From NCBI RefSeq assembly GCF_006788895.1, contig NZ_VFRA01000001.1, positions 2,728,001 to 2,792,000 on the forward strand: DNA of 64,000 bases, given 5' to 3'. A program made the position numbers and the translations under genes. Below are positions 9,528-10,908 of the stretch, one piece after another; position 1 is the stretch's first letter, and each line of letters begins with the position of its first letter. The notes beneath the pieces are model-generated. The model worked only from the letters and a program-made list of their open reading frames with translations. It was not told the origin of the DNA and did not search any database. The DNA is from Rhodoglobus vestalii. GTDB lineage: Bacteria; Actinomycetota; Actinomycetes; Actinomycetales; Microbacteriaceae.

Positions 9528-9567
9528 TCGCCGCGCGGGGCCGCCAGCGTATTTCGCGGCGAGAGCC

Positions 9568-9678
9568 CCCCGCTCCGGCGGCGCTCCCGCTCCGGCGGCG
9601 CTTGCGCTCCCGCTCCCGCAGCGCTCCCGCTCCCGCAGCGCTCCCGCTCCCGCAGCGCTCCCGCTCCCGCAGCGCTCC
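9568..9678. repeat. GC-rich tandem repeat, 17-bp unit
   Basis: From 9604 to 9678 there are 4.4 copies of the 17-bp unit GCGCTCCCGCTCCCGCA; 9568-9603 holds diverged relatives (CTCCGGCGGCG). The array follows the glyS stop within 45 bp and ends next to palindromic element A. The 9528-9876 gap contains only this repeat, element A, and the upstream region of the nuclease gene. Confidence 0.9.
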
Positions 9679-9687
9679 ATGCTTCCA

Positions 9688-9779
9688 CGGAAATTCAGGA
9701 AATCGTGGGACTGTGCGCTGTTGGGTGCACCGAAGACGGTCAAACTCTCCCGCGACTCTGCCCATTTCCTGAATTTCCG
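9688..9779. repeat. Palindromic element A (16-bp perfect inverted arms)
   Basis: CGGAAATTCAGGAAAT at 9688-9703 is the exact reverse complement of 9764-9779; 60 nt lie between. A related element (B) occurs at 10741-10830 on the other side of the nuclease gene. No transposase is present inside. This resembles a miniature inverted-repeat or REP-like element rather than a terminator, as no T-tract follows. Confidence 0.85.
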
Positions 9780-9876
9780 AAGCTGGCAGCTACTCCACAG
9801 CCGTGGTGAAAGCCGCAAGTCCACCGATCACGGCTGCTTCCGATCGCCCACCGACACTCGCTGCGATGCTCTCGTT

Positions 9877-10767
9877 ATGGCAGACATTCAGGCGCTGGTT
9901 AACGAGTTGGGCGGTTTCGCGCAGAAGCGCCAGCTGGTGGCTCGGGGTGCGCGAGATTGGGACCTAACCCGGGCGGTGAGAGACGGCTCGGTAGCGAGAG
10001 CCCGCCAAGGTTGGTACACAACGATGGATCTTGGGTCCCGGCGAGTGAGAGCGGTTCGGGTCGGCGGACGGCTGACGGGGATATCCGCCATCGTCGATTG
10101 GGGCGGGTGGGTTCTCGGAGAGCACCTGCTTCACGTTTCTGTGCCGCAGAATGCGGCACGATTGCGCAGCCAGTGGAACCGACGAAAACCTATCGGAGCT
10201 AGCCGCGGGATCTGTGTGCATTGGGATCCGCCATCTACCAGCGAACGCGGATCCACTTGGCACGTCAGCTTGGCTGAGGCTCTTCGAAGAGTGGTCTCGG
10301 ATGAGGATCTCGAAACTGCGGTCGCTGCTATCGATTGGGCGCTGTATTCGAGACGCCTGGACACCTTCGGGCTTGAGCAGTTGATACTGAGCCTGCCCAG
10401 GCACAAGCGGTGGATTGAGTCGTGGGTGGATGGGCGTTCCGACAGCCTTCCCGAAAGCCTTGCACGCACGCGATTGAGGCTCGCTGGTCACCGCGTTGAA
10501 ATTCAGGTCGCCGTCGGAAATAAGCGAATCGACATGGTCATCGATGATGTGGTCGGGCTCGAGATTAACGGAAAGCGGTTTCACGCGGACACGTTCGAAG
10601 AAGACCACCTGAAAAGCATCCAGATCACGATCGCCGGTTTTCATGCCCTGAGCGTGAGCGCCAAAATGGTATTCACCCAGTGGGATCTCTTCTATCGGGC
10701 AGTCAGCGTGGCGCTGGCATCGCCGGCCTCGCGTCGCTCCGGAAATTCAGGACTTCCTGCTGGATGA
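9877..10767 (+). CDS. Orphan AbiEi-N/DUF559-like (Vsr-type) nuclease-domain protein
   Basis: The 296-aa protein starts with a winged-helix-like segment resembling AbiEi antitoxin N-termini (residues about 1-50: LVNELGGFAQKRQLVARGARDWDLTRAV, ARQGWY). It ends with a Vsr/DUF559-like PD-(D/E)XK domain (about 190-285: RTRLRLAGHRVEIQVAVGNK, RIDMVI with the first acid, GLEINGKRFH with the Glu). Proteins like this are common orphan genes in actinobacteria; no target or partner is established. ATG 9877 is chosen because upstream codons are repeat DNA. The last nine codons (10741-10767) lie inside palindromic element B. Neighbours are unrelated housekeeping genes, so this is probably a mobile or accessory cargo. 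Confidence 0.75.
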   Translation: MADIQALVNELGGFAQKRQLVARGARDWDLTRAVRDGSVARARQGWYTTMDLGSRRVRAVRVGGRLTGISAIVDWGGWVLGEHLLHVSVPQNAARLRSQWNRRKPIGASRGICVHWDPPSTSERGSTWHVSLAEALRRVVSDEDLETAVAAIDWALYSRRLDTFGLEQLILSLPRHKRWIESWVDGRSDSLPESLARTRLRLAGHRVEIQVAVGNKRIDMVIDDVVGLEINGKRFHADTFEEDHLKSIQITIAGFHALSVSAKMVFTQWDLFYRAVSVALASPASRRSGNSGLPAG

Positions 10768-10830
10768 GATTTGACACAGCCGGGATATGGCGGGTACCCA
10801 GCCAGCCTTTGTGCAAATTCCTGAATTTGC
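10741..10830. repeat. Palindromic element B, partner of element A
   Basis: GGAAATTCAGGA (10741-10752) pairs at 11 of 12 positions with TCCTGAATTTGC (10819-10830), 66 nt apart. The right arm is itself part of a near-perfect palindrome, GCAAATTC-CT-GAATTTGC (10813-10830). Element A in reverse orientation shares with B the arm, a TTTGAC about 20 nt inside, and a GGT..ACCCA stretch, so the two may be inverted copies. The left arm overlaps the 3' end of the nuclease gene. Confidence 0.75.
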
Positions 10831-10908
10831 AACTGGAACGAACGGGAACCGGCGAGGCGGGCGGTGGAGAGGCGGGAATACCTAGAGCTCAGGGCTGTTG
10901 AGGAGAGA

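Follow-up and report, generated by a model that had tools for sequence, protein, structure and literature searches.

An orphan AbiEi/Vsr-type nuclease gene bracketed by paired-arm elements suggests an undescribed partnership of nuclease and dispersed repeat

Introduction

The window analysed here (64,000 nucleotides of Rhodoglobus vestalii, bases 2728001-2792000 of a single-contig genome of 2.84 Mb) contains a nuclease gene that stands alone between genes for a glycyl-tRNA synthetase and a DSBA-like protein (the glyS-dsbA site) and is bracketed by two short elements, each an inverted pair of arms. Do the gene and the elements belong together, and if so, which of them moves? The initial annotation was reminded of REP elements and their RAYT nuclease, but with an unrelated protein. 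In RAYT/REPIN systems, according to excerpts of PMC3116915, PMC8049555 and PMC3733652, one single-copy, vertically inherited nuclease gene is flanked by small dispersed elements, and each REPIN consists of two inverted conserved half-sites around a less conserved spacer of preferred lengths. The results below suggest an undescribed partnership between gene and elements, with the nuclease both recognising the elements and spreading them. In open-licence PMC text, the literature to which this claim of novelty is limited, no paper was found that connects DUF559/AbiEi-Vsr genes with palindromes.

Results

The nuclease gene and its neighbours

The start of the nuclease gene is best placed at ATG 9877 and its stop codon occupies 10765-10767 (Table 1). 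Fold prediction assigns AbiEi and I-Bth0305I/Vsr domains to the protein, and in the nuclease domain E193, Q210, D219, E229 and D243 do not vary among 66 aligned homologues. The Pfam family REase_MTES_1575 is matched at E 2.5e-5, under Pfam's own cut-off. Among the matches listed, the nearest named proteins are those of Leifsonia rubra CMS 76R (98% identity) and Rhodoglobus, with close orthologues in Salinibacterium sp. NG253 and G-O1. With alignment A1, 634 relatives (120 of them listed) were retrieved by protein search at E 1e-10 or better among 7999 candidates scored. In G-O1 (L087 9140-9990), the nuclease unit is separated from the dsbA-like gene by extra DNA that by eye resembles a secreted trypsin-like protease gene, adjoining a GGC-rich repeat of ~150 bp.

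Table 1. Features of the nuclease locus, in window coordinates.
Feature	Position	Strand	Description
C-rich, GC-rich tandem repeat	9552..9687		unit ~17 nt; abuts outer side of element A
Element A	9688..9779		arms 9688-9703 / 9764-9779 (CGGAAATTCAGGAAAT); interior variable, 60 nt
Nuclease gene	9877..10767	+	296 aa; predicted AbiEi-like DNA-binding module 1-185 and Vsr/EDxHD-type nuclease domain 186-285
Element B	10741..10830		arms 10741-10752 / 10819-10830; spacing 78

Domain pairs of this kind recall defence proteins, and PADLOC returns a weak AbiEi match of the protein (E 2e-4). Both points would suit a self-marking defence, in which the nuclease attacks DNA that lacks or carries the arms while chromosomal elements tether it or label self. 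However, the immediate neighbours are the glycyl-tRNA synthetase and DSBA-like genes, and the number of elements is low and variable, so that we consider such a defence very improbable. Nor does an AbiEii nucleotidyltransferase toxin adjoin the window gene, both neighbours examined being of other families.

Two elements that have only their arms in common

An orphan AbiEi/Vsr-like gene between two inverted-pair elements, as the initial annotation described it, is what we find, and the pattern extends to divergent homologues (below). The 16-nt arms of element A are indeed perfect (100% complementary); its 12-nt core starts are 78 nt apart, and it ends 97 bp 5' of the gene start. The arms of element B, read directly from the sequence, match at 11 of 12 positions as had been noted, and the repeat search places a core at 10743-10755/10816-10828 (92%). 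B also begins, as proposed, within the final codons of the gene, encoding its last residues (GNSG...) and enclosing the stop codon; several orthologues likewise read ...GNSG into their downstream element.

Within the window, element A is the sole inverted pair with perfect 16-nt arms at a spacing of 40-125 (0 in 20 mononucleotide shuffles), and GAAATTCAGGA at no more than one mismatch has 6 matches in the window against 0.70 expected, a number reached by 0 of 100 shuffles. The absence of a third pair within the window was confirmed; the nearest lies ~1.5 kb outside it (genome 2726388-2726477), and three more lie elsewhere in the genome. The idea that one element is an inverted copy of the other found no support, since the interiors of A and B show no more similarity than shuffles do (reversed p 0.28; direct p 0.43), indicating that the two have only arms in common.

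Element number follows the gene across the genus

The initial annotation had proposed searching this and related genomes for the arm. GGAAATTCAGGA has 10 matches in its own genome and its reversed control 0, and across 27 genomes of the genus the number of elements of this type (type 1) follows the gene. The relaxed arm GGMAAYTCAGGA, picked after variant arms had been seen at L070 and L071, has 8-31 matches in all 16 genomes bearing an orthologue (57-81% identity, or the window's own), up to four of which bracket the gene itself, and 0-3 in all 11 genomes without one (Fisher p 8e-8, related genomes not being independent). Co-occurrence is weaker for the exact arm, which is found in 13 of 14 gene-bearing genomes (all but G004) versus 2 of 11 others (G009, G024); outside the family, it has a single match in 1 of 15 genomes. 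At no more than two mismatches per arm, all 16 orthologue loci have an upstream pair and 13 of them a downstream pair; L066 has a weaker downstream pair, and none was found at L070 or L071.

Type-1 pairs total 69, comprising 25 beside orthologue genes and 44 solo elements. Solo elements are more numerous than bracketing ones in element-rich genomes, many of them are old, being common to several species, and arms are kept at orthologous solo sites. In the window's own genome, two type-1 elements stand in tandem at spacing 100 (L004; 1971297-1971408 and 1971474-1971585), with flanks that match element-bearing loci in four other genomes (L216, L221, L225, L226).

A second, independent arm type, CCGAAATGACGG, brackets a gene in G004, G008, G009, G013 and G016, with 4-39 matches there. 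It reaches at least 4 matches in 5 of 5 genomes with such a gene versus 2 of 22 others, G023 (13 forward and 13 reverse matches, 13 pairs) and G014 (2+5), in which no second-type gene was detected; the remaining 20 genomes have 0-2 matches. The second-type elements of G023, a genome 99% complete, are numerous and intact (e.g., L362-L372), and a recently lost gene, an assembly gap or cross-use by another nuclease could account for them. Type-2 pair calls number 58, some nested within one locus.

Arms are spaced at the helical pitch

Type-1 elements were found at no more than two mismatches per arm over a spacing range of 50-115. Their 69 spacings, some from orthologous elements, are 67-69, 77-80, 88-90 or 99-100, with none between, and the best period is 10.7 bp (R 0.918 versus at most 0.45 in 500 uniform draws). 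Since spacing is quantised near 67, 78, 89 and 99 bp, both arms lie on one side of the helix, and phasing to the double helix points to a double-stranded target. Upstream and downstream spacings are equal within 1 bp in 37 of 46 loci with high bracketing scores (defined below); in eight of the remaining loci the difference is 10-12 or 18-19 bp, and in the ninth it is 2.

In type-1 elements the arms are conserved and the interiors variable. The half-site spans ~16-18 nt (CTTCGGAAATTCAGGA(g)AT in type 1, CCTTCCGAAATGACGGAG in type 2) with a C-rich tract outside, and over the 30 nt next to the arms on the outer side the outgoing strand is rich in G (skew 0.24 +- 0.025). Elements often have low-complexity flanks: tandem repeats make up 12% of the first 100 bp from elements, 5% of the next 100 and ~1% beyond 200 bp, an enrichment confounded by the difference between intergenic and coding DNA. 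A hairpin interior as a conserved type-1 feature found no support, since these interiors fold no better than shuffles (mean z -0.38 versus -0.36 for the control); those of other loci partly fold better (mean z -1.09, 30% below -1.65). At three loci (L347, G016 C2:134280-135260; L361, G008 C27; L360, G008 C20), the outer half-site and its G-rich flank are tandemly repeated 2-4 times in units of ~21-25 nt, as if end synthesis had slipped at the edge of the element.

Helical phasing would also suit elements that are operators, and this is the main alternative: an AbiEi-like autoregulator with a small regulon, its nuclease domain incidental or used elsewhere. AbiEi binds inverted repeats in its own promoter and bends DNA, according to excerpts of PMC7319586, the upstream element is present in 16 of 16 orthologues, and arms are conserved at orthologous solo sites. 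Placement argues otherwise. The second element overlaps the stop codon of the gene, and of the 26 among 44 solo elements that lie between called genes, only 2 are between divergent genes, compared to 8 between convergent and 16 between same-direction genes (2 others have no left gene, and 16 fall in ORFs of a crude caller that over-extends in GC-rich spacers and were not used as evidence). Together with the invariance of the acidic nuclease-domain residues in 66 homologues and the gain of elements at new sites, with interiors in common despite unrelated flanks (below), this makes a purely regulatory role unlikely in our view, though less so than any other alternative considered here.

Divergent homologues have arms of their own, which co-vary with the DNA-binding half

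Divergent homologues are bracketed by arms that differ from locus to locus (e.g., CCCGTTTCTCAGGAATA and CTTCCGAAATGACGGAG, or TTGATCACC and GAGCAGACGC outside the family), while one arm is common to the upstream and downstream element of each locus. We scored bracketing as the agreement of four 12-nt arms, two upstream and two downstream (maximum 72). Over 116 non-redundant loci, the mean score was 63.7, compared to 53.2 when downstream flanks were swapped between genes. The best score among 63 control genes, drawn from the window and two genus contigs and possibly including over-extended readings of nuclease genes, was 56. This control maximum was exceeded by 34 of 34 genus loci (the window's own and 33 others; the 49 genus loci examined, weaker and partial rows excluded, also comprise 16 orthologues) and by 50 of 69 loci in other Microbacteriaceae genera (29 plus 40 fetched, with the same exclusions), with 19 of 69 not exceeding it. 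Outside the family, 8 of 13 loci (all non-own rows) were above it and 5 were not, and the high scores there may partly reflect other repeats, L097 consisting of long direct repeats; the same is true of L109 inside the family. L081, cut by a contig end, was excluded. As judged from these sequences, this kind of nuclease gene appears to be common but unstudied and usually bracketed by two copies of a short element, one that is specific to the gene and also occurs dispersed in the chromosome.

The two elements of a locus can resemble each other beyond the arms, being nearly identical including the interior at L072 and closely similar at L098, L111 and L162. In one syntenic group of loci (L077, L082, L174, L178, L184 and L187), all four arms change jointly between species (AACTCAGG, AACTCCTG, AACTCATG). 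In three genomes of one genus outside the family (L094, L096, L099), the gene is bracketed by nearly perfect hairpins of ~56-60 bp (GAGCAGACGCGAAAGCCCCC...), which differ from the phased, variable-interior pairs of the window's genus.

Arm similarity was compared with protein identity at 67 loci scoring at least 63, excluding the close orthologues L057-L071 as well as L090, L094, L096, L097, L098, L099, L100 and L109. The correlation was strongest for residues 61-185 (rho 0.37), lower for residues 1-60 (rho 0.24) and 0.08 for the nuclease domain; the Mantel null had a standard deviation of ~0.05 and maxima of 0.14-0.17. In these alignments, it is residues 1-185, and not the nuclease domain, that the arm sequence tracks. 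This fits the DNA binding of AbiEi, whose monomers are described in excerpts of PMC7319586 as binding paired inverted repeats and needing the full protein. Because many natural gene-arm pairs exist, the paired-arm code, residues against half-site, is directly testable.

Co-variation also bears on the idea that an unrelated, unseen transposase moves the elements as miniature transposons and that nuclease genes merely lie between favoured insertion sites. Dispersal by copying and sites without an element would be ordinary for miniature transposons. Nevertheless, each nuclease lineage has its own arm type, which varies along with the DNA-binding half of the protein, gene and element co-occur, the interiors are mostly unrelated yet the spacing is phased, and no transposase of the Y1 family, the one searched, was found: Y1_Tnp (PF01797) has matches in 0 of 27 genus genomes, compared to 5 of 14 control genomes. 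We therefore give this idea very little credence. The same search led us to reject a RAYT acting in trans.

Elements disperse and the gene stays in place

The comparison of empty sites suggested in the initial annotation was made with one genome per species, so that recent insertions are not datable, and it revealed orthologous sites without the element at L196, L222 and glyS-dsbA. At L196, an element site of G023, ten of the relatives matched to it have 4-71 bp in place of the ~255-295 bp, including the element, in G023. At L222, a site of G011, the element is present in G011, G010, G015 and G040 and absent in G001, G006 and G041; G020 has ~2.4 kb of other DNA at this position (C1:2089739-2092144), including a second copy of 152 bp of flank. 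The glyS-dsbA site (window 9528-10863) is without the unit in G009 and G018, which have 81-85 bp between matches, and is occupied in G013 (L073) and G003 (L074) by distant paralogues (33-35% identity) with other arms. No clean target-site duplication was seen at the two sites inspected for one.

Copies of whole elements were sought among type-2 interiors. In 20 of 2352 comparisons (49 elements, pairs in two orientations), the interiors were related (z above 4.5; 0 of 1500 shuffles), some of the 20 being one pair in both orientations or spread over two genomes. Both flanks were unrelated (z 2.0 or less) in 17 of the 20, the exceptions being a local duplication in L372, the orthologous pair L078/L176, and L176/L361. 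Clear copies within one genome are L368 and L369 (G023, different contigs) and L176 and L295 (G008, one gene-adjacent and one solo). Interiors common to elements with unrelated flanks indicate that whole elements have been copied to new places. Since most interiors within one genome are unrelated, copying is directly visible for a minority only, and either copying is rare and followed by interior decay or it is not the only way in which new elements arise.

Gene subfamilies represented by several members occupy the same syntenic loci in different species of the genus, as judged by comparison of flanks. Searches of 72,556 plasmid records (E 1e-10) and 50,697 phage records (E 1e-6) yielded no relative, so that transfer of the gene by plasmid or phage received no support. 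The self-spreading gene unit envisaged in the initial annotation was thus not supported: it is the small elements that disperse, and the gene is, on this comparison of loci, apparently inherited vertically at fixed positions.

These data weigh on selfish homing, in which the nuclease would cut sites lacking the unit and recombination would copy in the element-gene-element unit, with the bracketing elements as its ends. In its favour, the nuclease domain is similar to the homing endonuclease I-Bth0305I, the upstream and downstream elements at L072, L098, L111 and L162 are near-identical or closely similar over their whole length, the glyS-dsbA site is empty in G009 and G018, and it holds different paralogues in G003 and G013. 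Yet the genus subfamilies compared remain at shared loci, the plasmid and phage records hold no relative, and solo elements outnumber bracketing ones in element-rich genomes, which leaves homing improbable.

Discussion

The reading that we favour, and consider fairly probable, is that of a non-HUH nuclease with cognate REPIN-like elements, which recognises in-phase paired half-sites and copies the elements in trans. Binding, nicking and copying, and the choice of this nuclease rather than another enzyme as the agent, are what we infer from the observations above. The AbiEi-like module joined to a Vsr/EDxHD-type nuclease would recognise a half-site of ~16-18 bp (here CTTCGGAAATTCAGGA(g)AT), and one element would comprise two such half-sites, inverted and whole helical turns apart. 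Each arm would take one monomer, as the operator repeats of AbiEi do, and arms in phase would let the paired monomers touch, placing two nuclease domains. A cut or nick at the element, followed by host repair or replication, would then copy elements in trans to new, mostly intergenic sites, with the low-complexity repeats outside the arms as possible scars of copying. The pair that brackets the gene would be a constant source and probably also an operator.

If this is true, the RAYT/REPIN way of life has arisen twice, from unrelated nucleases. It would provide a probable role for a widespread family whose only names at present are DUF559, AbiEi-domain or very-short-patch-repair endonuclease, and might explain where short palindromic repeats come from in genomes without RAYT. 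We give about even chances to the broader proposal that AbiEi-Vsr fusions, a large orphan family in Actinomycetota, are a second, independently evolved palindrome-mobilising class, acting on pairs of double-stranded half-sites at helical pitch, each lineage having evolved a half-site of its own together with its AbiEi part, and have given rise to many of the short palindromic repeats of actinobacteria.

Among known systems, the EDxHD homing endonuclease I-Bth0305I, Vsr endonuclease and NGO0050 (3hrl) are like the window protein in predicted nuclease fold and acidic residues. Unlike them, it has an AbiEi-like DNA-binding half, its gene is free-standing between two genes, and the chromosome retains many target-like elements; some sites lack the unit, yet the loci are common across the genus. 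The type IV toxin-antitoxin antitoxin AbiEi (S. agalactiae 6y8q; Rv2827c) shares the predicted fold, with a weak sequence match, but the window protein has an extra nuclease domain, no AbiEii toxin adjoins its gene, its arm pairs are 67-100 bp apart rather than 23-bp repeats 3 or 13 bp apart, and its elements also occur downstream and dispersed.

The partnership of nuclease and palindrome that the initial annotation likened to RAYT and REP is strongly supported by co-occurrence, cognate arms and element-less sites. As in RAYT/REPIN, the gene is flanked by its own elements and vertically inherited, and the elements are dispersed doublets with inverted conserved ends and a variable spacer (69 type-1 pairs, 58 type-2 calls). 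The nuclease, in contrast, is AbiEi plus Vsr/EDxHD rather than HUH/Y1, neither the type-1 nor the type-2 half-site consensus has a GTAG tag, type-1 interiors fold no better than shuffles though those of other loci partly do, and the spacing follows the pitch of the double helix. RAYT/REPIN is nonetheless the closest known way of life.
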